A DNA stretch of 41,869 nt, taken from positions 1-41,869 of the forward strand of contig JAIXMF010000093.1 in the NCBI GenBank assembly GCA_025201365.1. The letters are read 5' to 3'. Of the stretch, positions 2,894 to 26,952 are shown piece by piece; positions within the stretch are counted from its first letter, which is position 1, and each line of letters starts with the position of its first letter. A program made the position numbers and the translations under genes. The notes below the pieces were generated by a model. It saw only the letters and a list, made by a program, of their open reading frames with translations. It made no database searches and had not been told where the DNA came from. The DNA is from Syncephalis plumigaleata (lineage: Eukaryota; Zoopagomycota; Zoopagomycetes; Zoopagales; Piptocephalidaceae).

Positions 2894-4253
2894 ATGTCTG
2901 CCACCGTCTCTACTATTTATTCAACAGCCTCTAATAACAACTCACTGTCCAATATGACTACAACTGCTGAAGCGTCAGCTCGTCCTCGGAGAAATCTGCA
3001 TCGTCGGGTAAGTAGCATAATTTATGCCGTATATGCGGTGTTGTGTGTGTGTGTGTGTGTGAATAGGAATGGTGGTTTCCTTTGCCAAGAAATGAATACA
3101 CTGGTGTATTAATCATGGTCAATATATATATATTTATAGACACGCTCTACAAACTCCGTCGATCCAACTCTACTAGCCGAACTACGTGCTAGTAAAGAAG
3201 CACCCAAGGATTTCTTTAGCGAATTGAACAGTAAACGAGTAAGTGCTTTTTGAATACTATCCGATATGATCTCATTATTAATAATGAATTGTCTCTATGA
3301 TGATGATGGTGTACATTTAGGCTTCTGTAGTTTCTCTACCAGCACTTCCCAATGGACGACGTTCGTTGGACGAACGACCACATCGGTTACCATCGGATGT
3401 GTTATCGAATGAGAAACCCAATAAGCAGCTAATGCTGGACTATCAGTTTAATAAGACAACGACGACAACGACAACAAGAACAAGAACTGCTAACAATAAT
3501 AATAATACGACGACGACTGACGCGTCTTCTAGAGGCATGATGTTAATAGCTCCCGCACAATCATCTGTCCTATCACCGCCCTTGTCTCTTACATCAGCTG
3601 CTACAGCACCCGCTGTATCGGATATCGACGGTGCAGCATTGCCTCCTACTTCACTACGTCTACCGCCAGCCATACCTAATCGACCACTTACTCGACTACC
3701 GCTACGTGGACGTAAACTACGTCTCGATCCCATCAACAATTGCGTACGTCTCAATAACATTGAAGGTGAGATCCGTTTACGATCACCCGTCATGGAAGTA
3801 GACGAGTCGGATTTGGAGGACGAGTTCAGTACGTATAACGAAAGTATGGCACCCACCGATGAAGTGTGCAGTCTCGGCAGCAGTAATAGTCAGCGTAGTA
3901 GTCGCGACAGCAGCATGCTACCCTCACCCTCTCCATCTCAACCCTATCTGCCAATATGTCCACCGATATCACATCCGCCTATGGCACACCACCACAGCAA
4001 TGATAGGGAGGAGATGATCGGTATTCCTGTAAAAGAGGAGGATCTATCGCTAAAGGGTATTGGCATCGGTATTGGTATCGAGATAGACACGTCAAACTAC
4101 GACACAATGAACAAAAGGGTGGCAATCGAGGAATCCCCTGCTACTGTTGCCACCACCACTGTAGATTATCGTAAAACACAAGTGATCGAACGACCCACCC
4201 GTTCATCAGGCGGACTACGATGGGATATCTGGCGATTATGCTGGCAAGCATAG
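2894..4253 (+). CDS. Unrecognised protein, 381 aa, three exons
   Basis: Three exons join in frame: 2894-3007, 3140-3238 and 3321-4253. Donors are GTAAGT-like; acceptors are TTTATAG and CATTTAG. The ATG at 2894 is the first in frame and follows a long pyrimidine-rich leader. The protein is hydrophilic and mostly disordered-looking. It has a basic N-terminal segment (RPRRNLHRR), a short motif EAPKDFFSEL, Thr and Asn runs near residue 110, a proline/arginine-rich segment (PPAIPNRPLTRLPLRGRKLRLDP, not quoted further), an acidic stretch EVDESDLEDEF, and a Gly-Ile dipeptide repeat (GIGIGIGIEID). It ends with a tryptophan-rich tail (LRWDIWRLCWQA). I see no membrane segment or catalytic motif. The composition would suit a regulatory or scaffold protein, but that is only inference. 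Confidence 0.7.
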
Positions 4254-5646
4254 TATATCTCCACACACACTATATTCCCTTTTTATTCTATTTACTGTAA
4301 CTTTTTTTGATTTTACTGCGTGTCCTAGTTCATATGCGTATGTATACGTGTATATGACTCCTTTGTCTTTACTCTCTCTCTCTCTCTCTTATACTACTAT
4401 CATTGTCGTTGTATGTGGCTATATAGCTCTATAGAGTTAATACTACTATACTCTATGATTATTTACACGCCCAATCCATGATAGCTCATTATCATTTGAG
4501 CTTTCTTTTTCTTTCTCTTTCCTCTCTTCTCTCTTTCCTTTCTCCTATGGGCTTGTTTATCGATCATTCTGTGTGAATTCCATCTCTACTCTTTGCAATG
4601 TTGAAATGTTTTTTCTCATTTTTAATGGCTTCTGTCACGGTTAGAGTAGCCATTCCTATATTCCTATATATCCTAGAGTGTTAGCAAAGTTCGTTTTGTT
4701 TGTTCGTTCGTCCATTCATTCGCTCCTTCGTTCGTTTCATTTCTGTGCTTCTCCTTTACTCATCGTAATTCAGCATTTCCTTGTCCTTCTATTTCCTTCC
4801 TGTTCGTAATTCTACTCATATCTGTGTCTCTATTATCTACTATCCATTGACTATCTATATATCCACTATATCCACTATATCTCTATATCTATATTGGCGA
4901 TTCCAAAAAGTACCTTACATTAATAAGGTCCTAGCTTTCTAAAAAATAATAATATACTAATGGCTTGATGCCAACAAGCGTTGTTGTTACATCTAGTTAT
5001 CGTATCAATACGAATCAACCAAAAAAATATCACTCACTATCCATCCATCTATCTAACTAATATATGCCACTGATTGTATATTTATATGCTGTATATGCAT
5101 ACACATGTACACACACACACGTGTGCATGCGTGTTCAATTCAGTTATAATGCTTCAGTATGTGCTATGAATAGATTGTAACAATGATACGATGTGATCAT
5201 TTTCGTTATTATCATCATCATCATCATTAGATTATCCTTAATAAACACCATCTATAGAAGCTTCACTATGAAATAATCGATTCAACTCTTTGTGACACAC
5301 GTATAGTACACTATACAAAGAAGCTTACTACCAGTCAAGTTACTTATGCATCATAGAATCATACCACAAAGTTAAATCTCAGATCTGAATACCGTCATTT
5401 GATTCATTAGCTGGATTGGTCTGATGTACTATTTAAGTAAACGTGCATCGGTAATCTACTACTACTTTTAGAGTGTAATTTGTTTGATAGTCACATGGCA
5501 CTATGGCTAAAACCGTATCTCTAGAATTCTACTACTTAAACCGCTTGCTAGATGCTTTTTCTCTTTCTAGATAGTCTTTTCTTTTCGTTTTTCGCTCTCT
5601 CTCCCTCGTTCTTCCGTGGTAGATCCTCGTCTCTTCATCGTCATCC
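4254..5646. other. Intergenic, partly pyrimidine-rich
   Basis: I see no supported gene. The stretch contains a TC run (about 4372-4388), long CT-rich tracts (4500-4560 and 4690-4830) with repeated TTCGTTCG/ATTCATTC words, a CATC run near 5214-5228, and CA/GT-rich sequence near 5110. Confidence 0.55.
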
Positions 5647-6059
5647 ATGTTGATCAGTATTGCTCGTCAATCTTGTCAGTATCATGACACTTGTCATGGT
5701 CTCTTCTTCCGTATCATTTCTATTGCAGTTATACTGGTTATAACTATGCATACAAATGTTACTGAGGCCATTTCCGGTAGAGCGGATGGTAATGTCTATA
5801 AATGATAATAGTTGTAGAAGCAATCTAATCTCTCTCATATTCATACTATATACATCTAGGCTATATGATGGACAGTTCATTCCTTACCTTTTCCAATGAA
5901 GTCATACAGAAATTACGCGATGCAGGATTGACTATCGTGAAATGGGAGCATAAGACTGCTTATCTTGGACTGGCCAATGCTCAATGGTTGGGCCAAAATG
6001 CATTTATGAATAGCGCATTCTCCCTTATGATAGAGTTGCCAAGAGTGGTGCACCCATAG
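5647..6059 (+). CDS. Small hypothetical membrane or secreted protein, 113 aa
   Basis: Two exons, 5647-5788 and 5860-6059, join in frame across an intron with a GTAATG donor and an ACATCTAG acceptor. Without splicing, the first exon meets a stop just after the donor. The N-terminal half carries a hydrophobic segment at about residues 20-33 (FFRIISIAVILVITM) that could be a signal anchor. The rest is soluble-looking (VIQKLRDAGLTIVKWEHKT). An AATAAA-like signal (TAATAAAG) lies about 180 nt downstream. I recognise no family. The model rests only on frame continuity and splice motifs, so a chance pairing is possible. Confidence 0.45.
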
Positions 6060-6381
6060 GCAGGAACAATGTGCAGCATCCACTTTATAGGTTCTCGCAT
6101 AACAATGGCGTATGCTTTGTTTACACGCATGTTGGCGAGTTACGGACACTAAAGAAAGCAATACAGATCATTTACAGTTGTAACAGTGATGTTCCCCTGC
6201 TTCTTCTCATTTCTTCTCATTTCTAATGAGATTACGATAATAAAGTATTCTACACTTTGAATAAAGCTGTATTAGTCAATCTCTACCAATGTACAAGAAT
6301 CAAGTTTATTACTTCCTATATACTATTTTATATATATACAAGAAGCAGAGATAACTATCCTATAAATAATACACGAATGAA
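6060..6381. other. Convergent intergenic gap
   Basis: This 320-bp gap separates the 3' end of the small plus-strand gene from the 3' end of the GCP2-like minus-strand gene. It is AT-rich and includes TAATAAAG (about 6239) and GAATAAAG (about 6260) on the plus strand, which may serve as polyadenylation signals. I see nothing else in it. Confidence 0.5.
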
Positions 6382-9300
6382 CTAGCGACGATGATTACTT
6401 TTACGATAGTGTTCGTTAAAGTCCAATCGAAAGGCCAGCGATTTAAAGTTCATATCAGGATGATCGGCCAATACATTAATTAACTTTGTAGCTTGTGTCT
6501 AATTGTAACAATAATGAGTATGAGTTATTTCTAGTCATTAATAGTAGTAATCACCTTGTATTCCTTCATAATACTATCCAACTGTTGACGTAATGGTGGC
6601 AATATCGTGGTGATAAATGTGGCAATCGCGTCATCATCTGCTTCATCCGCTGTTTGAATTCCCCATTCACCGCGTTTGGCTCGTTCCGTTGCTGTTTGAC
6701 GTACTGTCTTGCGACGTGTCACCGCTGACCATGCCTCTTCGTAGATACGATCCTAGTAATGAGCGTGTTAGTCATTGATCTATACTTGACCATCTCTCGA
6801 CTTACCTGCACTTGACATGAATCTAGGATTAAATTGAATATATTCCTTAGTTCTTGCATAAGATTCTAAACAAATCATGTCAATAGAATGTTATAACTGT
6901 CATTACTATTAGTTTCATACTTGTGAAGGCGAGACAGCCAATAGTGCCTTGTTTGTAATATTCGTTAAATATCGATCGTGTGCCTGTATCAATAAATCGA
7001 GATCATCTGCCTTTTCCTTAATAAATTTGTGCAACTCCTCCCATGAACACTCTAGCACCTAATCATATATACATTAACTAATATGCTCATTCTTCAGTTC
7101 GAATATGACCACTTGCCTCGAATAGAATGTAATACTGTAGTTGATAGATGAAATGCACCATTTCACTGCATTGAATATTACAGTATCTCAACTCTTTCTC
7201 AAGTTCTATATTGTACACACACAACTATAGCGATGAGTGTACTTCATTGGTGCAATGTTAGATGGCTTACCTTCAGCTTGTCTTAGTGTATGCACACTAG
7301 TCATTTGACGACGCCATCCATTGGATAGTGTGTGCTCGACACGTTTCAATTTCCATAGGAACTGGAATAGCTGTCGATATTGATCCATCGCTGATCGTTT
7401 AAACACAGTGGTGATCGGTTGCTCTACCGTGTACTCTAGACTGAATACATCCCAACCGGAATCACCAGGTGACACCTACATAATCATGCACATTAGAATC
7501 ATACTGCCAATAGTAGTAACTAACTAATTAGTTATACATACCTCCAATGCTTTGACATCTAGTCGTCGTTTAATATCGGGATCTTCATATTGTACATTCG
7601 AGGAACGAATAGCCGTTTCAAGTGTCGAGGTGAGATTATGACGGAATACCATACTGGCTGGTTTAGATAATGATGGACTAAATATTCATTAAGTAAAGTG
7701 TTATACGAATATTGACCCAAGTCAATTAGTGACATGCTTACCCTAGTGCATCCATTAAATGTTGAACAAATTCACCCTGACCCAATAGAAGGAATCGCTT
7801 AATGGCCTCGATATGATCAATAACTCGATAGCGAGTGTATAACGTGTCAAGTAAACGACGACTAGTCTCACGGTAAACAGTATCGATAGATGTCTCCAAT
7901 CCTTCCAGATCACTATATCGTAATACTAACATAGATAGATATATATACATTATTAATCAAAAGCAACAAACGAATAAAACGAATAACTTACTAGATCGCG
8001 TATCTTGATAACGTTGTGTGACCCATTCACTATCATTGCAGTTATAACGAATAAAATTTAGAGATTTGCCCACCGAATAAATCTAATATCATATAGATTA
8101 TCTTAGTATTTACTTCTATTCATTAAAGGGTGTGTATTACCTTATGAGCCAGTGAACTATGAATAAATCCGGGTATCATACTCGATTGTATGGTGTATCG
8201 ATCTCGCCATATGTCAACCTCACCATCATCGGTTATTGCCTCATTGCATATGACAAAGAACTCTTGATGAGGATCCTCCAGTTCTCCCTCGTATATCCAA
8301 CGTTGTAACATCTCGTAGAATGGTCGGGATACCTAGTCATTCATAGATAATTAATCTACATGTACATGTAGTAGGGCACACACACACACTACTATTCCTC
8401 ATTCCTCACGGATACACTTACCTCCTCCAAGGTTTCCTCTACAAATTGTCGAATAAATGGATCACCATGATCAGAGTAGGCATGAATCTGCGAGACTAAT
8501 GCGCCACCCTTTTGATCTATCATTTCATAATAAATGACCAGTCAATATCCTGCTTTGATAGTATAGACTAACAACATGGCATGATCCACTCACCTGCACA
8601 ACAGTCTACCATGACATTCATTAAACGTAGTTTACGTATAAAATCTTGTGTCCATATAACAATACTGCGTAGGGTAAGCGTATCGTCATTCGATGTTATC
8701 TCACCATTCTCTGCTGCATCTTTATTGATATGCGTGTCTAGAATGGCGAGAAATCGAAAGTAATCCGACAATTGCCGTTGCATAGCAGAACAGAAACTCT
8801 AATACGTAATAACAATAGGATTATTGCTAGTTAGTATCAAATAGATACACATGTATGCATACATGTATATGATATACTACACCTTACCTGACCCACTAAA
8901 CCATAGTTAATATCATTCGATTTAACCTCTACGAAACGATGAATATTCGCGTAGAGCATGCCTAATTCCGTGATTTGATGCACTAAACGACGTACAGATC
9001 GACTCACGGATATCTACAAGATAGTAATAGTAATCATGTTAGATATTCGTTATTGTCATTAGTACTCAATAACTGTTCAGTAAATGATTGTTCATTACAT
9101 TGGCATCAATGGCATAAGCATTTAGTCGTGGATCATATTTAACATAGTTGCCATCAATATCTTGGAATGCATAGAGAACATCGCGTAGTATAGTCATTTC
9201 AGATAGTTCATGTCGTGCTAAATAGATGTCAATCATTGTCTCATTCGATTAGTGAATGGTAAGATTACTAATAATGCTAATAGATAACAACATACCACGA

Positions 9301-10201
9301 CGCATTAATTGGAATTGTGGTTCTGCATTCGATGCTGTTGCAGGCATATCAACATTTCTAACAGATGGACGATGGGTGTCACGTTCGTATCGTTTACTAT
9401 GCGGTACTACTAATTGTTCAGATCTCGATGGTATAACGGATGGCATCTCAAATGCGTTATCCTGAAATGTAAACAAACAAACAGGCATGAATCAATGAGA
9501 ATGTACAAGGAGGGAGGAATAGTGCACTTACACTAGCATAGATAAATCCAGTCATGTCAATACTACCATGACTCGTATTAAGATCACTGGTGGCATAGAG
9601 TAAATAGAGTATGGCCCATGTATTGGATAATGCCGTCTAGTAAATAATAATGAATTAATAAAGTGTATTACTATCATAAACGTAAATAATAAACCTACTT
9701 GTTTAGAAAGTTGACTCAATAACGTGCTCAACTGTAACACTTTGGCACTTGATCTATTCTGTCGCATTACTAGTAATAATCGTGTACATGATTCATTATT
9801 AGCTAGTGTTTTCTACTACTAGTGGCTATAACACCCATGTACCTTTCTTCTTTATCGATTCGATAATTCGCGATTCATCCCTTATCGATGGTTCTGCAAG
9901 TCGACTAGATACTTTTGTTACTGGTTACTGAGCATAGCAACTACCGTATATATATATGTAGATATACATATACGGTATAGTCATCCTACACCGCTTACCT
10001 ATTCAATATGCGAAAACAATACTGGAGTAGTGCTTGTCGACGTGTCTCGTTGACGTGTTCATCCGTAGAATGGAATCCGGCGTGTTTAACAAGTTCACGA
10101 TTCACTAGTCCTGCAAGATCCTTATAGAGTGCATCAACAATAGTAGTACTACTGCCATTACTAGTGTTGCCACTGCTATTGATGTTATGTAGCCTATCCA
10201 T
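6382..10201 (-). CDS. Gamma-tubulin complex component 2 (Spc97/GCP2 family), 853 aa, 19 exons
   Basis: Subunit of the gamma-tubulin small complex that nucleates microtubules at spindle pole bodies. Nineteen exons join without a frame break: 10201-9999, 9904-9843, 9769-9699, 9636-9532, 9461-9296, 9217-9099, 9013-8888, 8798-8594, 8516-8422, 8332-8141, 8082-7992, 7925-7742, 7677-7542, 7475-7271, 7205-7117, 7058-6921, 6865-6806, 6752-6555 and 6498-6382. Family hallmarks include LYAFQDIDGNYVKYDPR, then ITELGMLYANIHRFVE, YGLVGQSFCSAMQRQLSDY, FIRYNCNDSEWV, and in the C-terminal gamma-tubulin-binding half GWDVFSLEYTVEQPI with FQFLWKLKRVEH. Length matches the family (yeast Spc97 is about 820 aa, human GCP2 about 900). 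The intron after exon 15 uses a GC donor (GCAAGT). A longer in-frame start exists upstream, but the ATG at 10201 fits better. Assignment to GCP2 rather than GCP3 rests on my recollection of conserved motifs. Confidence 0.88.
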
Positions 10202-10947
10202 TACGATAGTAGAGAGTAAGTGTCGTTTAGTAGTTACTTGACTAATTAAACACGAGAGAAAGGAGAGCACAATATACACGGTTTTTCCAACCGATTAACA
10301 ATGTTATCCTTTAACTTTTGTTTTTATTAATATTTACCTCTCTCTTTCCTCTTTCACACTTGACTACGTCCTCCATAATCACTTGTATGTGTATCGAATC
10401 GTGTTCTCACCAATCCCATTGCTCGCTGTTGTCATCACTCGATTCCATGCTGTTGTATCATGTAAGCATTAAAGTATAGGAACGTAGACGTTGTCTTTGT
10501 TCCTAGCAATACAGCAACACTAGACATAGTTATGACAGGTTGTAATCCAAGTGTAATGACAATATGTAGGAAGCATAGTTCTAAGGATGCTGACATATGT
10601 GATGAAATAGCACTCGTGTAATCAATATTCGATGACCTCACTCGATATACAATGCTCATTCATGGCACACGATAAGTAATAAGCATAGCTGGAGTAGAAG
10701 AAAGAATCGAACGATGAATAGAGTAGAAGAATGCCCTATAGCATTACATATTTATTCAATCAATGAACCAGCCATTAGTGGATAATTATGTAATAGGACC
10801 ATGGATGAATAGACGTAAGGGACTTGTAGATATATTTCTTGATCCAAGGAATAATGACTTGAATAGCGTGGACACAAAAGGGTCTTGCACCAATACATTC
10901 TTGACTTGAATACCTATAATATCTACTTGATGATGTCCTTGTCTTGT
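10202..10947. other. Intergenic: promoter of the GCP2-like gene and 3' flank of the microexon gene
   Basis: Both neighbours are on the minus strand. Their flanks share this stretch: the upstream region of the GCP2-like gene and the 3' end of the microexon gene. A short open frame at 10435-10659 (-) has no family or splice support. I see no other feature. Confidence 0.5.
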
Positions 10948-13900
10948 CCTGTAGTCATAATGGATTAGTATGAGGATGATTACTGTGGATTATTACTTAC
11001 TGCTTATTGCTTTCCCTGTAAAAATAAAATAGTTCATGTCGCCATTAATGCCTCATATCTTGTAAACGAGGATACTAGCTCACCTTCTATCATACACAAA
11101 TATATGTAATCAGTATAGCGTAAATTATAATCAGAGTGGTAACTTACTTTCTGTTATTTGTAAGCATACGTGAACCGAACGACATATATAATTAGTGTCT
11201 CATAGGCTACGATCAAGGTGACGACTTACGTCCTGTTTATACACGAATATATGTTGATCGAGTGGCATATGCAATTAGTACCTCTTAAGTTACGAACAGA
11301 ATGGTGACTTACAGGTCGCTATAGGTAAGCATACGTGGGATCGAGTACCACATTATAATTAATACTGCATAGACTACAATAATGACCTTAACTTACGCTC
11401 TGTTATAAATGAGCATACGTGGATCATATGGCATGTGTGATTAGTGCTTCATTCACTACAATGATAATGCAGCTTACTGGCTGTTATTCGTAAGTATACG
11501 TCGATCGAGTGGCATATGTGATTAGCGCCACATAGATTATGATCAAAGCGGTAACTTACAAGCTATCGTACACAAACACATGACATATTGGCATTAGTAT
11601 GGCGCACATTACAATGATAAGTAAACTTACAGATGACTATAGGTAAGCATACGTGATTAGTACTCAAGCATAGATTACAATAATAGTAAAAACTTACACG
11701 CTATCATACAGGAACATGAATTGATTATGGATCATAGCATGATTAGTATCTCATTCATTACGGTCAGAATAATGACTTACGGCCTATCATACAAAAACAT
11801 ACGTGAAACGTGTGCCATATCGTAGTTAGTACAGCATTCATTACAGTCAGAATGGTCACTTACCCTCTATCGTACGAGAACATACATGGATCGTGTGCCG
11901 CATTAATACCAATACATGCATACGTTATCATCGGGAATAGTAACTTACGCACTGTTATCCACAAATGTATGAATATCATGTGCCACATTATCATTAGTAC
12001 ATCATTCATTATGGTAAGAATGATAACTTACTAACTGTTATGCAAAAATGTATGTTGGCCATGCGCCGATACTGTGATTAGCAATCATACATTTCGATTG
12101 GGATGTCAACTTACTTTCTATCATACAGTAAATCACGTGCCACGTTACAATTAGTATGCTCATAGGTTACAGTTAGAATGATAGCTTACGTCCTATAATA
12201 AGAAAATCATGTACCACGTTATGATTAGTACCCATTCATTACAGCCAGAATAATGACTTACTCCCTATTATACACAGACATGTATTAATTGTGTGCCATA
12301 TCATAATTAGCGCATTCATTCACTGTAGTCAGAATGATTACTTACGCCCTGTCATAAACAGGCATATGTTAATCGTGCATCACATCATAATTAGTACTCA
12401 TTCATAGGTTACAATTGCAATAGTGACTTACAGGCTGATATACAAAAACATACGTGGATCATGTGCCGTATCATAATTAGTACCTCATTCATTACGGCCA
12501 AAATGTTAACTCACAGGCTGATATATGGGAACATATGTGGATTGTATGCCATAGCGTAATTAGTACTCATTCATAGGTTACAATTGTAATGGTAACTTAC
12601 ATACTATCATAAATGAACATATGTGGTAATGAGCCACGTCGATATTAGCGTATTTATATTACGGTCAAAATGATTACTTACAAACTATCATACGGGAACG
12701 TATGTGGATCATGTGCGATATCATTGTTAGTACATCCATTCATTACGATCATAACGGTAACCTACACACTGTGATAGGCAGATACATGTATGGATAGAGG
12801 GTCACATCATTATTAGTACACCATAGTTTATAAATGGAATGACAACTTACACACTGTTATACCGGGACATACGTATGGATTGCGTGCCATATTATTAGTA
12901 CATCGTACATTGGATTAGAATGATCACTTACGTTCTATCATACACAAGCATATGGATAGTGTGTCAGATTATGATTAGCGCATTAATAAATTACAATCAG
13001 AATAATGACTTACTTGCTGTTATACGAAAACACGTATAGATTGCGTGTCATATTATTATTGGTATCTCGTTTATTATTGTCAGAATAATGACTTACGTCC
13101 TATCATACAGGAACGGATGTGGATCATGGGTCAAACTGTGGTTAGTACATTCATAGATTACGATCAGAATGGTAACTTACTTTCTATCATGTGGGAACAT
13201 ATAGATTGGTGTGCCATAGCGTGATTAGTACTCATTCATTACGGTCGGAATAATGACTTACAGGCTATCATACGCAAACATATGTGGAGCGCGTGTCATA
13301 CTGTAATTAGTACGCCATTTATCGCGGTCAGAATGGTCACTTACGTCCTAGCGTCCAAAATATGTGTGATCGTACGTTATTTAAAATTAGTATACTATTA
13401 ATGATAATCGAAATATTAACTTGCCCACTAGCATACACAGGCATACGTTAATCGTGTGCCACGTTGTAATTAGTACTTCATTCATTACGATCATAGTGTA
13501 ACTTACAAACTGTCATACACAAACATATATGGATTCATGCGTTAAATTAGAATTAGTACTCCATTCATTACAGTTAGAATGATGACTTACCTCCTATCAT
13601 ACGGGAACATATAGATTGGTATGCCATAGCGTGATTAGTACCTCATTCATTACGGTCAGAATGATAACTTACGCCCTATCATACAGGAGCATATGTGGAT
13701 CATGTGTCATATTATCATTAGTACCCATTCATTACAGTAAGAAAGGTAACTTACAGGCTGGTATACGGAAACATATGCAAATCATATGACATATCATAGT
13801 TAGTACCTCATTCATTGCTGTCAGAATGGTTACTTACAGGCTAGCATACAGTAACATGCGTAGATCGTGTGCCATACCGTAGTCAGTACCTCATTTATTA

Positions 13901-14347
13901 CGATCAAAAGGTTAACCTACGCACTGTGATAGACAAATATATGGATTGTGTGACAGATTGTGGTTAGTAGTCGTACACTACGATCAGAATGATAACTCAC
14001 TTGTTCTTGACATAGTAGGCACATAGCATTTTGATTTTTTATTATTATTAGTATAGTACTCATTACGGCCAATAGAATAGCTTACCAACTATTATTAACA
14101 AATTTATAAGAAGAATAAACATTACAGTGTGATTAGCACGTCAAAACAACCATTAATATACATGAACTTACCAGCTATCGGTAATCATCGGTGGACAATG
14201 AAACAATAGGCTATGATTAGTACATCAATTGATAGGGTCACGGCCAGACATACCACGACGGACCAATGCGGGACTAGCTTCAACGGCGACCAGACTGGTG
14301 AGAGCGACAACAGCGACGGCAATAGCGATAACGGCAGAGAACTTCAT
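10948..14347 (-). CDS. Codon-per-exon gene: secreted Cys-containing peptide (76 aa) from exon 1 plus 39 microexons
   Basis: Exon 1 (14347-14254) encodes 31 residues: a signal peptide (MKFSAVIAIAVAVVALTS...) ending at Arg30-Arg31, then one extra base. Microexon left ends, 5' to 3' on the minus strand, are 14172, 14086, 14001 (5 nt), 13921, 13838, 13755, 13673, 13591, 13507, 13425, 13345, 13262, 13181, 13097, 13014, 12932, 12851, 12766, 12682, 12601, 12515, 12432, 12346, 12262, 12190, 12115, 12032, 11949, 11864, 11781, 11698, 11631 (6 nt), 11560, 11478, 11397, 11313 (6 nt), 11230, 11148 and 11084. All others are 3 nt. Exon 41 (11015-11001) ends GKQ-stop (stop at 11006-11004). A 3' UTR exon may start at 10948 after a 52-nt intron. 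The joined frame is open; the region after Arg-Arg begins AVEQCPPGEFWD and holds four cysteines including a Cys-Cys pair. Nearly all introns are GT-AG, 60-83 nt. Function unknown. Confidence 0.85.
10949..14253 (-). repeat. Array of about 40 homologous introns, period about 83 bp
   Basis: Units repeat every 80-86 bp, with a few at 64-75. Read on the minus strand, each unit is donor (mostly GTAAGT), then a segment like ATTCTGACCGTAATGAATG, then a branch-point word, then a segment like ATGTGCCAC/GATCCACATATG, then ...ATGATAG or ...ATAACAG. By my count 26 of the 40 coding-region introns carry exact TACTAAC or TACTAAT, and most others keep CTAAT. Unit sequences are degenerate and mosaic: introns at 13594-13672 and 13184-13261 are nearly identical yet flank different codons. 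The three bases between AG and GT are highly variable, whereas the splice motifs either side are conserved. Confidence 0.9.
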
Positions 14348-16428
14348 GTTGATGTTGGCCTAGTGGAATGGATAGATAAGTTGGCTAGAACGAGAGTAGA
14401 AAGTAGTGAGAGAGTAGAGTAGAGAGTAGAAGAGCGAGTATGAAGATGACAAGTAGAGTGTGTCAAAAGCGTCTTATTTATAGCCAAGATGATGCTAAAT
14501 ATTTAGGTGGAAAGCATGATGATGGCTATCGTGGCGTCATTCATTATACATGCGAGTAATTCCCCTAAGCATCTACTCCACATGCCGACATATTGTAACG
14601 ACATGGAATAATATTATAACGCTGTATTACACATTTTGCTACATTGTTTTAGCTCTAAGAGGCCTTCTCTCCTTATTTTCTTCACCTGAGATATTTTTCA
14701 TGGGACTTTGTAACCTAATCCTCTGTTGCCATCCACTATTTCCTCCATACTCGCCACTCCCATTTCTCTTTTTACCTGTTATTTCCAGGGAGAAACATTC
14801 GCATTGGGATTACTTTGGTGGTGGTGTGATAGAAGTCGCCATTGTTCAAAGGTAGCAGGACTAATATTCGAATAGGCCAGTTTGTAAGAAGAAGCCGGAA
14901 TGCCCCAGCACCATGAACTTTTGTCCATACGTTTCACCAACCTGACATGAGGAAGCTGGACAGGTGTTTGCTGGTCAAGGGTTAAGCAATTAGCCTCAGT
15001 TTGAGTAAAACATACCAGTTCAACAGAGCGTATTACAGCCATTCCACTTTTGAATAGAGGTCTGGGCTAAGTCATTAGAATAGCCAATCATTTAACGAGG
15101 AGTGAAGTAACCGTCATCTGCAATACAATGACACAAATGCAAGCATACAACAATGTACGAGTGTTTAATGATATCCGTTGCTTTCAAAGTGATCGGATTG
15201 GTCAGTTCAATGTAAGCAGGCTGGGAATATGAGCATTTGTCGAAGGAGGGAGTGTTTATTTGCTTGGAATTATCGAATGCAACTATCATTAGTCTAGGAA
15301 CTGACGTAGCTCGTTTACATCCACCTATTTGTTCGACGTCATTCTTCCCGGTCAATAAAAGTACTCATTCCCATCATCACTTGTTTTAACTCCTTAGCCG
15401 CACATTTCACTAACACTAGACATTATGCTATGCTCGGATTGTTATGCGTATTACATGCATGTGTGGTGAGGATAGTCGGCTGTTCGATGAAGTCGATTAA
15501 GAAGTGAATAGGTAAGAATAGGAGGCATGTCTGTCTAGTTGGACAGTGATGGCAAATCAAGTTGAATAGCCGATATTGTGCTCTTTTAGCATAGAAATAC
15601 GTGCGAATTACGAACAATACACGATAGCTGCCAATAATAGAGCGTGCATGTAATTATTATTCTGACTTGATTGTCACATTCATACAAATGCCATTCATTA
15701 TCATGACATCTACATGACATGTTCATTTGTATGTCATCTATCATTGTTCATTTCATTGTCGTTTGACGTGGTTGATACTGCTTGCAATCTATCACGGTAT
15801 GTCATCAAATGATCTCACGACCATATGGACGTATTAATAGAACCTGAACATACTTGATGGTAGCAATAACGTGATACGACGCGCATATTCAATCGATATG
15901 ATTTGTTAATGCATGTCACAGTTTATGTCCGGCACCTCATGCGTTGATTGTTGCATCAGTGCTATTGCCAGTCAGTATAATCATGATTGAATGGACGATA
16001 TAGCTGCCTGGTTAATTTGCCATTCAAGATGATCATGATATGAGCATATTATAGCAATACAACATGCATCGTTAACGAATTCAATCGTATCCCATAGCTC
16101 ACAACTAATTGAATGAACTCTGCATTTGATTCTAATGAAGAAGACATGTTGGGGCCATGTCTACAGGTTCCCTTAGCAGCAGTATTTTACACGGGTGCCA
16201 TCAATATGCATTGCATAAACCAGTTTACCTCTATGGTCATTGCTTTATTATCAAGCTACTATCAAGTCTATCCTTTGACGACACAGTAATACTACTAGCT
16301 TTTATTCTACCGACTATCCTAATTTCATCTATGGACAACCGTTTCCAATTTTATATTCTGTTTTCTAAACGCATCTGCCACTTTCTATCGCTCTATAGAT
16401 TATTATAATTGTATTTATTTACTTCACA
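14348..16428. other. Divergent intergenic region between the microexon gene and the 7TM gene
   Basis: This 2-kb stretch holds the promoter of the microexon gene at its left end, followed by mixed AT-rich DNA. Two unsupported minus-strand open frames, 14779-15042 and 15092-15355 (87 codons each), have ordinary composition but no recognisable motif, and I could not join them convincingly by splicing. They could be a decayed gene or element. From 15640 to 16140 the DNA is AT-rich with many CATGACA/ATCATG words and no coding signal. Confidence 0.45.
14475..14482 (-). promoter_or_regulatory. Candidate TATA box of the microexon gene
   Basis: On the minus strand this reads TATAAATA, within GGCTATAAATAAGAC. 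It lies about 128 nt upstream of the ATG at 14347, leaving room for a short leader. It is the best TATA-like word immediately upstream of the gene. No transcription start is known. Confidence 0.5.
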
Positions 16429-17423
16429 ATGCCAGTCATTGACTACAATAATCCCGATGATATTAAGCGAATTAAAGCGCTCGAGGAAAAGTATGACATG
16501 CCGTTTGATGAAATGCCCAGACTCACTATTGGTGACTTTTACATGAGGGCCTCTGGAGATATTCCCGAACAGCGCAATCGATTATTGGGAATACAACTTG
16601 AATTATCGTTCATTCTATTCATTTTCTGCTTGTTTAGTCGGAACATCATTAGGTTATCTAGAGCGCTAATGTCAAACCCACACGCACTACCCTTATGGTG
16701 CGCTTTCATATCCTCATTCTCGGGTATGGCCACCGAGGGTATTATTCTAATAGGATTTATAACAGGTCGTTTCAATTGCAACATATGTCTTTGGCTACAA
16801 ACGGTCGGTATGAGTTTGTCATTGTTTTGTAATAGCATAATACTGCTTCGTAAAGCGCACCTGGTGCTACTCAAGAAGAATTGGGTATTATACGTGGGGA
16901 TCCCATTGATCATGCCACAGCTCGTATATTCAGCAATTTGGATACAATACTGTATAGCTGTTCCAGAAGTCTACCTCGGTTGTGTCGTTTACTACGCGCA
17001 GGTTATATTGTGGTTTTGGGTAGGAATTAATATTCCACATACCATATTATTCTCTGTTATTTTCTGTCATAGAGCCTATAATCAGTACGTGATATTTGGA
17101 TCCGACATCTGGAAACGACTGATGCGTGAAGGCATACAAACAATGTGTTTTGTCCTATTATGCAACCTTGTCAGTATAACTATGATTGTTTTCACCACTG
17201 ATACCGTGAATAAGGACCTGTTCATTGGTATAGATTGGTAAGCAATGATGATAATAGTGATAACAAATGCCATCCTAACACTATCATGATTAGGGTCATA
17301 GTTACAACAATACTCGCGAATCATTGCTGCAACAATAAGGCTAAATCACCTACTGACCGTAAGCCTAAGACGGAACATCTGCTGCACGTATCACAGATCA
17401 GCACGGCACATAGTCAGGATTAG
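16429..17423 (+). CDS. Orphan seven-transmembrane (GPCR-like) protein, 312 aa
   Basis: Two exons, 16429-17237 and 17294-17423, join in frame (donor GTAAGC, acceptor ATGATTAG). Unspliced, the frame stops two codons after the donor. After a hydrophilic N-terminus of about 60 residues come hydrophobic segments: LSFILFIFCLF; LPLWCAFISSFSGMA...ILIGF; WLQTVGMSLSLFCNSIILL; VLYVGIPLIMPQLVYSAIW; VILWFWVGINIPHTILFSVIF; TMCFVLLCNLVSITMIVF; and a seventh spanning the exon junction (LFIGIDWVIVTTILA). A short polar tail with Lys/Pro follows. The topology fits a fungal serpentine receptor, but I cannot name a class or ligand. An AAAATAAAAG signal lies about 130 nt downstream. Confidence 0.72.
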
Positions 17424-18727
17424 CATGGCTATTAATATTGTAAGCTGCTCATTATTTATTATACAATTGCATTTACTATTAGCATTCATATCTTTCTATC
17501 TTGCTGACTAAATAACACAATTTATTACTGCTACTATTAGTTTGATACATGCATGTAAAATAAAAGTATTCAAGTGATCTTTGTATTGAAAGTAATTTAA
17601 TGTAGAAGATACGCTTACATTGATGCTTCACTGAATTCCAAATGGATCAACAGTCGTAGAAGAACATCTGATGGTAGTGTAAGCAGACGACTTTAACAGA
17701 TTATAATAATAACTACAATCGACTACTATGATTACTACAACCGATGGAATAGTGTCGTCATTAGCGACGTGGCTTTTTCGTCGTTAACCTTCCATTCTCG
17801 TGAATGTGATCTGTACCTCTTTCGTCAGTCGATTCCAACTTAGTGGTGCTAGTCGATTCTGTCTCATCGCCACATAACTCATCCATTGCTTGATATCAAG
17901 TATCACTATTATTTCCCTTGCAGCATGCTACTTTACATCGTACTGTCATTACATTCTTCCTACTCTAATCGGCTGGCTGCAAATAACTACACCGCATTAT
18001 CTAAATGATTACACCATAATCATATACTGTATTCGATGAGCATTGTAAATCGAGTATTTATTAAATAAACTATGTTGATAATGCTTACGATTGATTGCAT
18101 AGGAGTAGCAACGAGTGAACTAATAGAATACACGATAAACAATGTAATAAACAAGCAGTAACTAGTAGAATGACTGAGTTGTCACGAATGAACAAGGAAT
18201 GAGCAAGGAAGGGTGCATGAACACGTATGTCAGTTTATTTGGAGATTCGAGTATCGTTTGTGGAATCGGGGTTATGGTGGCTCGTCTGGATTTCATTCAA
18301 ATCACCAACTGCCTTCGTAGTGGAACCGATGTTCCAACACACCCTCATCCAAGTGTCGTTGCTTCCAATCATTCAAGACAAGGAGGACAAGAACAAGCAA
18401 CTTAACCGTGGCGTTATCGCTATCTACACATCTAAATACGTAAGTTTTATTATCATAGCTATTATATATTCATAAAAGCAAAAGACTAACTGCGTTAATC
18501 AGAAGGGGAAATTTTGTACAATGAATATTGCCTAGAATAAAGTTCATTGATTGGCTACAAAGAAAAGTGCTGATTTTTCTTTTTTTTTCATGAATTAATC
18601 GTTCTCTGTTCTACTCGTATTCTTCTCTCTCTTTATCGCGTACGTAGTCATTGGTTATTGTTGCTCGTAACATATATATACGTATATATCACTACTGTAT
18701 CGCGTAGCGTAATAGATCTACGACAAC
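17424..18727. other. Intergenic with ambiguous coding fragments
   Basis: I see no confident gene. A 41-codon minus-strand frame at 17886-17761 ends in KKPRR. An alternative minus-strand reading through 17929-17777 gives a plausible C-terminal exon (QWMSYVAMRQNRLAPLSWNR). However, its acceptor (GCTGCAAG) is weak and overlaps a good plus-strand acceptor (TTTCCCTTGCAG at about 17922). Plus-strand frames at 18199-18405 and 18227-18475 overlap each other, and neither can be assigned. The right end is the MAK16 promoter, with an AT-rich near-palindrome at about 18671-18690. Confidence 0.35.
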
Positions 18728-20300
18728 ATGAATAGCGACGATCTTATTTGGTCTGTGATTAATAAACAATTCTGCTCGTACAAGGTCAAGTAAGTGGTGT
18801 TAACAGCAAACTGCCGATTAGCTAGCGGTGTTTTGTATAGCAATAGTTATTAATATGTATTATACAAATAGAACGGTCACTCAGAACTTTTGTCGTAATG
18901 CCTATAATGTCACCGGTCTATGCAATCGTTCCTCGTGTCCATTAGCCAATAGTCGCTATGCTACTATTCGTGAACGTAACGGTAAGTCAAGCTATGATTT
19001 GATAGTAATCAAGTATAATAATAATAATAATGAATACTCGATTGATATCCATGCAGGTATCGTCTATCTTTACATGAAGACTGCTGAACGTGCTCATACA
19101 CCGGCAAATCTATGGGAGCGCGTTAAACTATCCAAGAATTATGTAAAAGCCTTGGAACAGGTGAGTATTCATCATCCATTCTATTAAGAAATAGACGAAC
19201 TAACAATGACTACACATGAATAGATCAACAATGAGCTGCTTTATTGGCCAAAGTTCCTTAAACACAAATGTAAACAACGTTTAACGAAGATTACACAATA
19301 TCTCATTCGAATGAGAAAATTGAAACTGAAGAACACGTAAGTAGTCCGCTATTTCTATATTATTTTGTTGCTTATTTATGTGTATATATGACAATGTATG
19401 TTCAACGAACTAGTCCAACGTTGGTGGGCATCAATAAAAAGATTGAACGTCGTGAAGCCACACGTGAACGTAAGGCAGAAGCTGCTGCTCGTCTGGACAA
19501 GGCAATTGAAAAGGAATTGCTCGATCGATTAAAGAACAAGGCATACGGCGAGGAACCACTCAATGTCAACGAGGATGTATGGCGTGAAATTCTCGAAGAA
19601 CACAAGATCGAAGTGGAAAGTGATGTAACAACTGAAGATGAGGAAATGGAAGACGAAGATGAAGAAGAAGAGGAGGAAGAAGACGAGGTAAGTATCAGTA
19701 TGATTGAATAGAACATGTACAGTATGACATGTTTGCTAATTGAATGTTGTATATTTGCTATTAGTTTGAACATGAATTTGTATCGGATATTAGCGATGAA
19801 GATATTAGTGATTTCGAGGATATGATGTCGTCGAGTAAATTCGGTGATGATATCTCGGTTAGTAATTAGATACTACATTTGTATTAACATTGTATTAATC
19901 ACATAATGATACTATTGAATAGAGTGGTGATGATGATGATGATGAGAATGATAGTATGGCATCATCTGATGAAGATGACGAAGAAGATGACACTACTACT
20001 AGAACAGCGGATAAGGTAGCGTGTTGATAATGATTACTAACATCAATTGACTACACGATTACTTACTCGTCATCATTGCTAACATTAGAAGAAACGAAAG
20101 AAACCCGCTAATGAACCGAAACGTATTACAAAACGATCCAAGAAACGTAAGTGCCACCCTCTTCTATACCTCTGCTACCTATATTATTGTCTAATCACAC
20201 TGTAATCTATCCATTAGGTGGAGCTCATGTCGAAATTGAATACGAACACGAGCCAAGTGAATTACGAATTGCCAATGGTGCCTCCTCGGCCGCTTGGTAA
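18728..20300 (+). CDS. MAK16: MAK16, 60S ribosome biogenesis factor, 329 aa, nine exons
   Basis: Nucleolar protein required for 27S pre-rRNA processing and large-subunit assembly. Exons are 18728-18789, 18872-18981, 19057-19160, 19224-19336, 19414-19687, 19765-19857, 19923-20015, 20089-20146 and 20218-20300, all in phase. The N-terminus carries the highly conserved block with its cysteines ([41 protein letters not shown]). It continues [21 protein letters not shown], then [20 protein letters not shown], and [19 protein letters not shown]. An acidic Asp/Glu tract spans exons 5-7. A Lys/Arg-rich nuclear-localisation-like segment precedes the end (HVEIEYE). Length is slightly above the usual 300-306 aa. 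The donor after exon 7, GTAGCG, is unusual. Confidence 0.96.
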
Positions 20301-22668
20301 TCGCGCGACTCATCCTATTATTATTTACAGTACATTTGGACGCTTTTCACCTTTTGGTTATCCGAGCTATAATACGAATTGAACTCCTTTTTATTAGTAT
20401 ACTTGCCAGCAATATATGAAAATAAACGAACTATCGTTACATTACTATTATGATGATTAGCAAACGATTACGTGACATGAAGCAACACTGACTACCGATG
20501 ATCATCTTAACTCCATTTGTCTATTTTGTTTTATTCAACTATGTACGCATCTTCGCGACAAATATCCCTCTAGAGTGTCACGACATTTGCACAAAAGCTA
20601 ATACATGCGTTATATCATTCATATACCACGTTTAACCATTCCTAGGGCAAGTGCCGATAAAAGCATACCAAAGAAAAACTAGCGACTCTACAAGAGAAAT
20701 CGCTCCGTGGAAGTAGATATAATTTGATACATGGTCGATACGCGAATTCGCGTTGTTTTTATGTTAAAGCAAGAAAACAGGGGTCTCACCCATGGACTTT
20801 GACTAAAATAGCAATCTAGTAACAAATTAAGCAATGAATAAACTGCTACATTGCTATCTCGTGTTTACACGTAGTAAAACACACATATGTAATGACGTAC
20901 AATCAATATTGGAAACAGTTACTACGGTTTACTTGTAACGAGACAAAGGAACAAACATATTTGACTTGAACTGGAACTGTAGTCGCCAACCAATATTACT
21001 TGTTAAATGAGCAGGCACGGCATGCATATTAATCCATTGTCGACTGTCATCAACTTGGACAAACATTGCTAGATTGGTGATACATTCATACATCATACAT
21101 CATCATCATCATCATCATTCCTGTATGGTGTGAATCACGACAAGCAAAAAGTACCTCATTGTTGAATAGGCAATGCGCTCTTTATTTACTACTATGACTG
21201 CAATGTACTAGTGTATATAGTGCTGAGTAGGATGCCGCGCCAGTAATGTCATCAATGTCGTCATCTGACCTGGCCCATTGGCGTCACCTGGCCTACTGGC
21301 TGCTGTTCTGCTGACCATCTCACCAATAACTGTGTATACCCATGATAGGAACAAGCTTCTATTTGTTCAATAACGAATGAATGAATAGTGGATTACTAGC
21401 CAAATATGTTTATACGCTTGTATAAATAATGATACATATCAATGGTATGCGTAAGAATTGCCGCTTGTATTAAGGCACGCTGTAACATTGCTCTTTTCTT
21501 TCATCATCTCTTTGTTTCTTATTGTACATCATCCAGTCACTCACTCACTTGCCCCTTCCCATTCTACGACATCCACATTGCTACATTACAAGTTGTACTT
21601 GTAGTATCCATTCTAGTGCCATTTCTTCCTCTCGTTTCTTGTAAGTTATTGTATTGTGTATTATTTGGTGTTGTCATTGATCGTGTTCCCACCAATTGAT
21701 TGATTGCGGACCTTTTCATTTATCTGGTCTGATATTCATTCATTCATTCATTCATTACAGTCTGAGTGTGTAGGATTATATCCCTGAGAAGCGTAGCGGT
21801 CAGTTCTTGTGACAGCAGCAGTTACTATTCCTGTAAGGAGTTCTTGCGGTGTAGCAGTACTATTCTTACAAGTTTCCAGTTCCTATCCTGATACTGGCAC
21901 TTTTCTATCCATCTCGGTAATAGAGTGCCATTATATCCGTCTGCACACACACATTCATACATCGCATCGCATATATCATCCGATAGTTTACCAGTGTGCG
22001 AATCTGTGAGTTTGAATGTGAGTGAGTCAGTGTCTGCATTACCGCTGCTGCTTCCTCTTCTTATCCGCATTGTCCACTCATACGCACCTCATTCATCAGC
22101 AGTCCAATCTCCTTTTCGGTCGTATTCGTCTGTTTCACACCTTTGTGTTTTGGCATCACTTTTTTACGCTCACACGTGTCTCCTTGTTCGAATTCACTTG
22201 CTTTTTAACCCGGCCCAACAACGACGACATCGACTATCGGCTAGTGTTGTTACTTTTATTTCTCAGTTCTTATATATCTTCTATACTATCATATTATAGT
22301 GGTTATTCATTGTTGGCGTAGATATAAGCAGTCAGTCAGTCAGTGGTACGCACAACTATAACTACAACCATTCAGCATATTTAAATCGATTGACTCTTGC
22401 TATTATTCTTACTCATTATCTTGTCCTCTCTTCTCTCCCCCTTCTACTATTTCTATCTGCTACTGTTGCTATTCACTAGGCTATCATACCTCCTGCTTGT
22501 GTGTGTGTGTGTGCATAGACAGAATTAGTGTAATAGTCAGTCATTCTAGTTAGTTTTGCTTGCTTACTTGCCAACTAGTATCTCTCTCACTCTCTCACTC
22601 TCTCACTCCTTCTACAACTATCTATCATTATTGTTATTCTTTTGTATTATCGTTGAACTTGCGTTACA
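20301..22668. other. Intergenic, with pyrimidine-rich leader of the ceramidase gene
   Basis: I see no supported gene. Notable sequence includes a CATC run at about 21092-21118, a CATT run at about 21735-21760, a GT run near 22499-22512 and a CTCACTCT run near 22583-22608. From about 21480 to 22660 the plus strand is pyrimidine-rich, as upstream of several other plus-strand genes here. It probably contains the promoter and 5' leader of the gene starting at 22669. Confidence 0.5.
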
Positions 22669-24197: not shown

Positions 24198-25625
24198 TTA
24201 GATGCCTACCGGCTTGCCCTTGCCACCACCATTATCACCATCTCCTGGCTTTGGCCAAGGGAATGGCCAAGGGAATGGGTCATTAGGATCGGGCGATGGA
24301 CCTGGAGATGGCTTTGGCCAGGGGAATGGCCAAGGGAATGGATCCTTGGGAGCTGGAGCTGGAGTTGGAGAAGGCGAAGGAGCTGGAGCTGGAGATGGAG
24401 ACGGTGATGGAGCTGGTGATGGAGCTGGATTCTTGCCATCACCTGGCTGGTTGTACACCAATTTATTAGGAGTGTTGGCTGAGACACCCTTAAGAACATT
24501 AGGCGTGGCATTATCAACGAGAGCTTTGTAAACGGCGTCAACCGAGTTAAAGGCGCCGGTACCAAGATAGAGCGCGGCAACACCGGCGATGTGTGGAGAA
24601 GCCATCGAAGTACCGGAGATAGTATTGGTACTACCATCGGTGCCCCTCCACAATGACTTGATGTCCATACCTGGTGCGTATGCCTTGACACACTTGCCAT
24701 AATTGGAGAAGTAGGCTTGCTGGTCCTTCTTGTCGCTAGCAGCAACGGCGAACACCTTGGCAGCACCGGCTGGCGAGGTCTTACACGCATCATTACTCTC
24801 GTTACCGGCAGCTACGATAAACACGACACCGGCATCGACTGCGGCATTGACCGCGTCATCGAGTGCTCGTGACTGGGAACCACCCAACGACATGTTGGCC
24901 ACGGACTTGCCACGACGAGCATTCTGGGCAACATACTGAATACCGGCAATGACATTGGCATCCGTACCGGAACCCTGACCGTTCAACACTTTAACACCAA
25001 AGATCTTGGACTTCTTCGCAACACCGTACGACTTGGAGGCGGCAGTGCCGGCGACATGCGTGCCATGTCCATGCATGTCCGTGTCCGCCTCGTTCTTGAC
25101 GAAACTCTTGGCGAATACGGCACGTCCCTCGAAATCGGAATGTTTGGCCTCCACACCAGTATCCACCACCCAGATGTCGATACCTTCACCGGCGCTGTCC
25201 GGATACACGTAGGGTGCGCTCGTGTCAAGTGTACGCTGCGAGATACGTGGTAAACCCCAGCTTGGTGGCGAGTCTTGCTGACCTAGAATGGTGATGATGT
25301 TTTGCGGTTGCACGTATTCAATGCGTGGATCCTGCTTGTAGCGAGCGAGTTGATCGTCCGTCAGTTTACCGGCAAATCCTTGGAATTGCTCGAGTTCGTA
25401 TGTATGCTGAACCTCGGATCCTGGTGCGAAACTACGATGCTCGGCTACAAAGGCACGTGCCTCGTTGCCGGGACGTAACTTGATGATGTAGGCACCTTGG
25501 ATGCTTTCCTTCAAAGCAATGGGCACACTCTGGGCTAGCGCGGGAGATTGGATGGCGGCATTTGCCGAGACCGCAAGGAGAATGGCAGCAGTTGCCAGAG
25601 TCAGAAATGTTCTGACAAATTTCAT
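24198..25625 (-). CDS. Secreted proteinase K-like subtilase (peptidase S8), 475 aa, single exon
   Basis: Extracellular serine endopeptidase. The signal peptide spans residues 1 to about 23 (FLTLATAAILLAVSANA). An I9-type propeptide lies at about 43-112 (GAYIIKLRPG ... RIEYVQPQ). The catalytic domain runs from about 120 to 395. The triad is visible as Asp155 (VVDTGV), His187 (GHGTHVAGT) and Ser340 (GTSMASPH), with oxyanion Asn275 (AAGN). The tail after about residue 395 is a Pro/Ser/Ala linker followed by two copies of a DPFPWPFPWPKP block and a Gly-rich end. The gene is intronless and more GC-rich than its surroundings. Both features suit a highly expressed or recently duplicated secreted enzyme, though this is inference. 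A TATAAAAT word lies about 200 nt upstream. Confidence 0.96.
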   Translation of the reverse strand: MKFVRTFLTLATAAILLAVSANAAIQSPALAQSVPIALKESIQGAYIIKLRPGNEARAFVAEHRSFAPGSEVQHTYELEQFQGFAGKLTDDQLARYKQDPRIEYVQPQNIITILGQQDSPPSWGLPRISQRTLDTSAPYVYPDSAGEGIDIWVVDTGVEAKHSDFEGRAVFAKSFVKNEADTDMHGHGTHVAGTAASKSYGVAKKSKIFGVKVLNGQGSGTDANVIAGIQYVAQNARRGKSVANMSLGGSQSRALDDAVNAAVDAGVVFIVAAGNESNDACKTSPAGAAKVFAVAASDKKDQQAYFSNYGKCVKAYAPGMDIKSLWRGTDGSTNTISGTSMASPHIAGVAALYLGTGAFNSVDAVYKALVDNATPNVLKGVSANTPNKLVYNQPGDGKNPAPSPAPSPSPSPAPAPSPSPTPAPAPKDPFPWPFPWPKPSPGPSPDPNDPFPWPFPWPKPGDGDNGGGKGKPVGI

Positions 25626-26952
25626 AATGATAATGAAATGATTTTTAGCGTTGGTTACAAGAGGTAAATAGGGAAGATAAACAAAATTGCGTAAATTGTT
25701 CCGTTAAAACGCGTAGGCGAATAAGAATAGAATGGACAAGTGAGTAGGTTGAAGTGAGGTAATATTCGTTAAGATGAATGTTGTTGTGATAATTATTAAC
25801 GTGTTAGCACATAAACAGCTGCTCATTTTATAGTAAAACAAGAACAGGAATCTGGTAGGTTTATTACATGATTAACAACGAAATACTGCTGCTTGTTTGC
25901 GTGCTTGATTGCTACAATAATCAATACTATCATTCAATTGTTGGAATAATCTATGCATGTAAGTGGTGCGCTTGTCCAACAGTAGATTCTATAGAGTAAC
26001 CACAGCAGCGGCAATATTGACGCGTCACCACCGATAATGTGCTGGGTCACATGCAATAGGACTGCGACAAGTATGCATAGCGTGCCATACCGTGTCGCTT
26101 CTATTCGTATCCTATCGATTAGTATGTCATTTATTCGTTCACTTGCACTAAACCCAATTGACGAATGGACGTAGAACAAATGGAATACGCTATTACTTTC
26201 GTCGCTTTTGCTGGTCCAGCACATGTCAATGTTGCCTAATTGGCATGGTGTCTCCTCGTGGTAGGTCAGGCGTATACACAAATAAATGCCACTTTTAGTA
26301 GTAAATGATGACAACAGAGCGGTGCAAGCAGGGCCTTAGCTTGAAGTGGTCGTCGTTTTACATGAGAAAGGTCACGCGACATAAGTGAACGAAAGGCGCG
26401 TGTTTATGCCATGTAACAATGGCGATTATATTACATTTACACCAAAGTGTATGCGTATGCATGAATACGACGTTTGAAGCGTGGACGATCAAATGGCTTA
26501 ACGTATAACTAACTTACTGGTGGATATGCGGTATCACATTAGATGACATGTCCAAGTGTACACTGCATAAAATGTAACCGTGTTGTACTCGCACATAGTA
26601 TGACCGTGAAACCTATTGATATACCTTTAGCAACTTGGAGGGCATTGAATGAACCGGTACTAACCTATGGTATATTCCATCATGCCAATCCCCGAGTGGC
26701 ACCGAGCTCATTATAGAACGCAATGAATGGGCCCAGACTATTGGTAATTATGAGGGATTATCACGTCAACACTAATCGACACTTTGAACTAGAGCAAATA
26801 AGCACTGTATGTAAGAGATATAGTAGGATCCAAATATTTATTACTATTATTATTAGCGGTAATGATGCTAATAGATGTTGTTATTATTATAATCAAAGCA
26901 TCCTATAAAATAATGGAGTCATTTCGTAAGAAATGTATATAGAGAGATTGTG
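25626..26952. other. Intergenic; one uncertain open frame
   Basis: A 126-codon minus-strand open frame (26314-25934) has two hydrophobic segments near its C-terminus (CILVAVLLHVTQHII and LPLLWLLYRIYCW). I found no motif or splice support, so it is left uncalled. The rest is AT-rich and includes the promoter of the subtilase gene at the left and the 3' flank of the second 7TM gene at the right. Confidence 0.4.
25825..25832 (-). promoter_or_regulatory. Candidate TATA box upstream of the subtilase gene
   Basis: On the minus strand it reads TATAAAAT, about 200 nt upstream of the subtilase ATG at 25625. It is in the right orientation and plausible with a leader of roughly 150 nt, but there is no evidence of use. 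Confidence 0.3.

Follow-up and report, generated by a model that had tools for sequence, protein, structure and literature searches.

Organization of the locus

The window analysed here, i.e., the whole stretch of 41,869 nucleotides corresponding to contig C377 of the searched assembly, carries on the minus strand of positions 10948–14347 a gene in which a 94-nt exon is followed by about 40 units of about 82 nt each. Every array unit has YAG or a similar sequence, then three bases and a donor resembling GTAAGT, and also a branch site resembling CTAAY. The structure was parsed by dynamic programming, blind to the reading frame, in which donor, acceptor, branch site, and lengths were the only scored elements, with a weighting in favour of 3-nt exons. 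For the window gene, this signal-only parse gave exons of 94, 3, 3, and 5 nt, then a series of 3-nt exons that includes two of 6 nt, and finally a 15-nt exon with a TAA. The features of the locus are listed below.

14254–14347, minus strand: exon 1, 94 nt, encoding MKFSAVIAIAVAVVALTSLVAVEASPALVRR and carrying one further base; predicted hydrophobic leader and a Kex2-like Arg-Arg site
14172–14174, minus strand: microexon CTG (signal-only parse)
14086–14088, minus strand: microexon TTG (signal-only parse)
14001–14005, minus strand: phase-setting 5-nt exon AACAA, downstream of which each 3-nt exon is one whole codon
11084–13923, minus strand: main array of 36 microexons (34 of 3 nt, two of 6 nt) with introns of about 80 nt; spells CPPGEFWDPKDQNCCFYPPGGDKLCRARSSLPSRPDKK
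11631–11636 and 11313–11318, minus strand: 6-nt exons of the main array (signal-only parse)
11001–11015, minus strand: terminal coding exon GGAAAGCAATAAGCA (G K Q stop; signal-only parse)
10949–11000, minus strand: last intron, 52 nt (from the comparison of 3' junctions)
10823–10948, minus strand: 3' UTR exon, matched as far as about 10823 in 32 fetched gene loci, including the intronless L046, L048, and L050 and not L049
14390–15880, no strand: upstream block common to L015, L017, L020, L022, L027, and the flank of L032 at 86–91% identity; probable promoter region
10835–15617, no strand: segment that holds the whole gene and that contig C79 (L043) lacks at the corresponding position

The joined product of the window gene would be MKFSAVIAIAVAVVALTSLVAVEASPALVRR-AVEQCPPGEFWDPKDQNCCFYPPGGDKLCRARSSLPSRPDKKGKQ. 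A preliminary description, made from the letters alone, had read the gene as a 94-nt exon, 39 microexons, of which 36 have 3 nt, two have 6 nt, and one has 5 nt, and a final coding exon, for 76 residues in all and a joined frame open up to a stop in the first exon after the array. Its counts turned out to be exact in the signal-only parse, from which the 76-residue product and the open frame were also reproduced, the 15-nt exon holding the TAA. The same description had foreseen that ordinary gene finders would call the locus a minisatellite, an apt remark since Tandem Repeats Finder reported only pieces of the array as repeats (period 72–165, 72–76% matches).

The flanks of the gene at 3000–10500 and 17843–22000 matched contig C79 at 98%, with a stretch of 94% between them, and no target-site duplication was seen at the place in C79 where the segment 10835–15617 is missing. 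A paralogue (L032) is located on C79, about 65 kb further on. From this comparison, the window and the matching part of C79 are probably alternative copies of one region, the gene being present or absent depending on the copy. Among the fetched loci, those with Cys-type arrays had around 1.4–1.5 kb of upstream sequence common to five of them and 530–620 bp downstream common to six. Elsewhere in the window, positions 15618–17772 correspond to a dispersed repeat, 86–94% identical in several other contigs and beside L032, in which an ORF (16399–17241, plus strand) encodes a multi-helix, membrane-like product with no Pfam match. Positions 24198–25703 (minus strand) encode a Subtilase with an I9 propeptide and a Pro-rich repeat tail, with tandem repeats of 6–63 nt in the 3' part, and an Opy2-like cysteine domain slightly below the Pfam cut-off lies at 34977–35630 (plus strand).

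A gene family across the genome

The search was extended to the complete assembly (32.6 Mb, 383 contigs). Its fungal nature is indicated by 16 Fungal_trans matches, compared with none in 14 control genomes; Radial_spoke matched neither the assembly nor its own control, and a pattern for rDNA ends had no match. One strict unit pattern matched 160 times genome-wide and a pattern of two consecutive strict single-codon units 684 times, with 0 matches for the reversed-pattern control in both cases; one version of the unit pattern had no exact match in IMG/VR. A pattern for exon 1, which recovers 35 of the 35 parsed copies, matched 131 times in the genome and once in its control, part of these matches being probably alternative haplotypes. 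When a 161-base query around exon 1 was used, 40 scored matches out of 193 candidates showed 90–100% identity.

Loci L009 to L050 were fetched, the first 20 of them picked by the array pattern and the next 14 by the similarity of their exon 1 to that of the window, so that the sample is not random. BLAST located 37 exon-1 copies in L009–L042 plus the window, 35 of which gave a parse; the exon-1 copy of L037 had no donor above the filter. In many genes, a frame-aware parse continued beyond the true end, and the signal-only parse together with a first-AG rule was used in its place. The parsed genes have from 7 to 68 microexons per array, with an exon of 5 or 2 nt near the array start. Small symmetrical exons hold most of the coding sequence, as in micro-exon genes (888 three-nt exons in 35 genes), and each parsed intron has its own donor and acceptor, with exon bases separating neighbours, which distinguishes them from stwintrons, where a splice site of one intron is split by another, internal one.

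In the longest array, that of L022, 48 exons have 3 nt and 18 have 6 nt, for a predicted product of 118 residues; in the second half of this 68-exon array, many 6-nt exons give a Pro/Arg-rich tail. In L045 (C1:1740600-1744100), exons AAG and GCC alternate to spell KAKAKAK, as if a two-unit block had been multiplied. The reverse complement of L026 (21–2144) holds a second array upstream, with looser signals and at least one 3-nt exon that reads TGA in phase 0; as the other two phases are open by eye, it is possibly a relative with split codons. In addition, array loci in small contigs (such as C6, C58, C97, and C186) have close copies in large contigs, which suggests the presence of alternative haplotypes in the assembly.

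Splice signals

YAG-NNN-donor sites number 35 in the array region of the window and form regular chains of up to 28, whereas in the rest of the window, and in all 300 resamples of this region under a first-order Markov model, no chain is longer than 1. Introns of the family (936 introns of at most 130 nt) have a mean length of 79.4 nt (SD 4.3), the donor GTAAGT in 721 cases, and a median of 43 nt from the branch site to the AG. As the parser scores AG, donor, and branch site, part of their conservation is built in; AG and GT were required and the rest of the donor was scored, so the 1.5–2.0 bits of these positions are partly of our own making. The exon slot of the 888 three-nt exons carries 0.02, 0.05, and 0.12 bits per position, whereas unscored intron positions nearby mostly carry 0.4–1.3 bits, with the exception of position -11, which at 0.09 bits varies as freely as the slot itself.

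Given the strong signals, the removal of such introns by intron definition is plausible, and single exons of 1 nt and of 3 nt are known. Counting against the model, an efficiency of 95% per intron would leave, by our own arithmetic, only about 13% of complete transcripts. The AG found close to a donor at every parsed unit could also be expected if the array sites were stepping stones of recursive or ratchet splicing that leave no codons in the mRNA. Recursive sites are not known to carry bases between AG and GT; here, in contrast, 3 nt separate them in 888 parsed cases and behave as codons, and we hold this alternative to be highly improbable.

Probable coding character of the arrays

Downstream of the phase-setting exon, no in-phase stop was found among 886 array codons of 35 genes, compared with 4 and 96 stops in the other two frames, in a count that skips interior exons of a length not divisible by three (so that L012, L034, and the second L018 gene contribute no frame lesion) and that does not reach the exon-1 frameshifts of L010 and L011. 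In a nonredundant set of 31 genes, the result was 0 stops in 790 codons versus 26.8 expected from composition. A stop in the same phase was present in 29 of 30 terminal exons, and the array codons were enriched over expectation in Trp (5.9-fold), Cys (2.0-fold), and Pro (2.05-fold).

Frames open from the ATG to the stop of the terminal exon were found in 24 of the 35 parsed genes, and three further genes (L029, L035, and L039) were open to the edge of the fetched DNA. Under the strict rule, six of the 35 lost the frame or ran into an early stop: L010 and L011 by a frameshift in exon 1, L012, L034, and the second gene of L018 by an interior exon of 2 nt, and L025 by an early stop under the first-AG rule. 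Finally, the arrays of L033 and L040 break off into other sequence. That of L033 ends at around position 3564 in unrelated sequence; its near twin L017 reaches the terminal exon.

These six lesions and two broken-off arrays, together with the high copy number (131 exon-1 pattern matches) and the lack of the gene in one copy of the region (C79), are what would be expected if most arrays were decaying pseudogenes or mobile repeats that had inherited their open frame from a few working copies. However, the arrays of the 31 nonredundant genes have diverged, the introns of different genes being about 65% identical, and still they hold no stop in their 790 codons, for which reason we see such decay as an improbable account of the family. 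An array with one codon per exon, encoding a secreted peptide, appears to be the best explanation of the data, to which we assign a probability of roughly 88%, and the coding interpretation of the preliminary description is supported at the level of sequence.

Predicted peptides

The hydrophobic leader is conserved in the exon-1 copies, where a putative signal peptide and Kex2 site were recognised by eye, and in many members the leader and the Arg-Arg site are followed by a peptide of the C...CC...C type. In a set of 13 peptides picked for showing this C-CC-C pattern, it is spelled across exons in all 13, and C, CC, and C are the only invariant columns, tyrosine not being among them. The pattern is absent from other members, such as L009, L013, L014, L021, and L024. 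A comparison of the window peptide with the PDB gave nothing convincing (best E 1.6), and a search of its own genome for uninterrupted sequence coding for it, run with no positive control, gave no match. As for function, our guess is that the secreted peptides form a hypervariable, disulfide-bonded family shaped by diversifying selection and act on other organisms or rival strains.

Intronless relatives and the predicted 3' junction

Of six loci fetched late, five were used and L047 was left out; one of the five (L045) is an array, and the other four (L046, L048, L049, and L050) have no intron after exon 1. The second exon-1 copy of L019 also runs on with no intron. In L046, L048, L049, and L050, the frame passes from the Arg-Arg region (Arg-Cys in L050) directly into the mature sequence. 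L046 is a Gly-rich member with internal repeats. The frame of L050 continues past the expected stop, so this copy may be broken.

L048 reads TAAGCA-AGCAAGACAAGGACATCATC, identical to the predicted spliced 3' junction of L015 and close to others. The 3' acceptors had been located through a conserved UTR motif, with the same junction in 25 of 30 cases and a later AG in five. In 32 fetched gene loci, the match extends over about 128 bp from the start of the 3' UTR. The intronless genes could be either ancestral or processed (retroposed) copies, and in both cases they support the predicted outer splice sites.

The same relatives bear on another possible reading, in which everything that separates exon 1 from the terminal exon would be a single long intron, or a regulatory minisatellite, with small exons that are cryptic or always skipped. 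Repeat finders do report the array as a repeat only, and exon 1 joined directly to the terminal exon stays open by eye into the 3' UTR, in another frame. However, one frame alone is free of stops across the 35 genes, the phase-setting exon is kept, the C-CC-C pattern spans exons, and the intronless L048 is read in the frame that places the stop in TAAGCA, all of which makes an array without codons quite improbable.

Variation between gene copies

Codons and introns of related genes were compared by counting only those codons for which both flanking introns were at least 90% identical between the two genes. Between the window gene and L032, codons differed at 16 of 60 sites versus 94 of 3130 in introns (p = 6e-11), and between L020 and L029 at 5 of 54 versus 50 of 2882 (p = 0.003). 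The opposite was found for the pairs L036/L038 and L017/L033 taken together, with 0 of 120 sites differing in codons versus 200 of 6393 in introns (p = 0.054), a borderline signal of purifying selection; all these p-values are rough, since an intron located between two scored codons was counted with both. Alignment of whole genes gave 0 differences in 89 exon sites versus 4.6% in introns for L036/L038, and 4 in 131 versus 9.3% for L017/L033. Thus, codons seem to diversify in some gene pairs and to be conserved in others.

Overall, 53 of 189 codon pairs differed, 41 of them with a change of residue and 12 silently. When both flanks were at least 97% identical, 7 of 44 codon pairs still differed, four of them at two bases, one of these four being silent. 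One codon of the window/L032 pair went from CGT to CTG (two bases) inside 141 of 141 identical flanking bases. Two-base codon changes within near-identical introns were observed in both the window/L032 and the L020/L029 pairs, and they are hard to obtain through single point mutations alone. In addition, L020 lacks around 11 consecutive units that are found in L029.

Intron identity was 0.646 within the same gene, 0.654 between different genes, and 0.678 between adjacent introns, and 51 within-gene intron pairs were more than 90% identical. These values suggest an old array that was copied many times, with recent duplications of units. A system of codon cassettes that generates diversity might even be imagined, with single codons kept apart by the related introns that insulate them, residues gained or lost one at a time by recombination, in-frame peptide libraries produced by exon skipping, and a codon slot rewritten faster than its surroundings, perhaps by targeted mutation or by conversion of tiny tracts; we offer it as a speculative and rather unlikely extension of the coding reading.

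Proposed mechanism and significance

In the model that we propose, the gene would encode a small secreted peptide whose mature part is built from tandem cassettes, each of them formed by one intron of about 80 nt and one codon. The conserved 94-nt exon would supply the leader and the Arg-Arg processing site, an exon of 5 or 2 nt would set the phase, each 3-nt exon would then add one residue, and a short last exon would bring the stop. Through intron definition, the spliceosome would take out about 40 introns related to one another, guided by a strong GTAAGT, by a CTAAY branch site located about 43 nt ahead of the AG, and by YAG. Because the introns of the main array fall between codons, the gain, loss, or skipping of a cassette would add or remove one residue with no frameshift, and the codon slot would be free to diversify under fixed intron signals. 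The structure of the array and its coding nature are supported by the genomic comparison; splicing, secretion, and Kex2 cleavage are inferred.

The gene would be a tandem repeat of introns, each of which carries a single codon; if placed under micro-exon genes, it would be an extreme variant of them. Should transcripts confirm it, an exon size near the lower limit would be used as a building principle, with one residue per splice event, and a family with more than 100 first-exon matches would be built that way, which would be a test of the spliceosome on about 40 consecutive introns with 3-nt exons. Single codons located every 82 nt or so in non-coding sequence would offer an unusually clean measure of selection, and as intronless relatives share the genome, the origin of the array by gain or loss of introns is directly testable. 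Genes of this kind would probably be missed by standard gene prediction and by short-read mapping.

Comparison with known systems

Precursors of the conotoxin type have a conserved leader and a hypervariable mature peptide framed by cysteines, encoded in ordinary exons. The family of the window would resemble them in its predicted leader and, in many members, cysteine frame, and differs in its exons and in the organism. In the SP7-like effectors of Rhizophagus, a fungal secreted family, modular repeats are preceded by a conserved intron, and the passages of that source that we draw on describe 6–11 hydrophilic repeats with the motif Y[KR]Rx[AP]x[AP] (PMC11333574). This motif was absent by eye from the 13 chosen peptides. 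The SP7-like repeats are of many residues at the protein level, and codon-sized exons are not mentioned in those passages (PMC11333574).

Isolated microexons of the smallest sizes are on record as 1-nt exons in plant APC11 and VPS55 (PMC8831610), a 3-bp micro-exon in fly homothorax (PMC7392893), and two 3-nt exons in Dactylellina lipS (PMC5639578). They appear one or two per gene, with no repeat array and no hypervariable slot, whereas dozens of them are consecutive in the family described here. The preliminary description knew of no gene with dozens of consecutive one-codon exons, and in agreement with it no run of one-codon exons was described in titles or abstracts among the literature matches listed (e.g., the best 15 of 655), a search whose scope excludes preprints and most subscription journals.

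Exons of schistosome micro-exon genes (MEGs) are mostly of 6–36 nt, and these genes are not known to contain homologous intron units in tandem or one-codon exons in succession. Bicycle proteins of aphids carry paired cysteine-tyrosine-cysteine motifs, which may differ from the invariant C-CC-C of the 13 chosen peptides. In the published account, most of the coding region of MEGs consists of very small symmetrical exons, with secreted products and variants produced by alternative splicing (PMC4350168). The window family is like them in its very small symmetrical exons and its products, here predicted to be secreted; MEGs, as described, are set apart by longer exons and by belonging to an animal parasite. 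Bicycle genes are presented as fast-evolving putative effectors with many small exons, and megacycle has more than 100 microexons for about 2000 residues (PMC9168663). Each exon of megacycle thus carries many codons, whereas those of the window family carry one. Among the literature matches listed, micro-exon genes and bicycle genes are the nearest kinds to the arrays described here.
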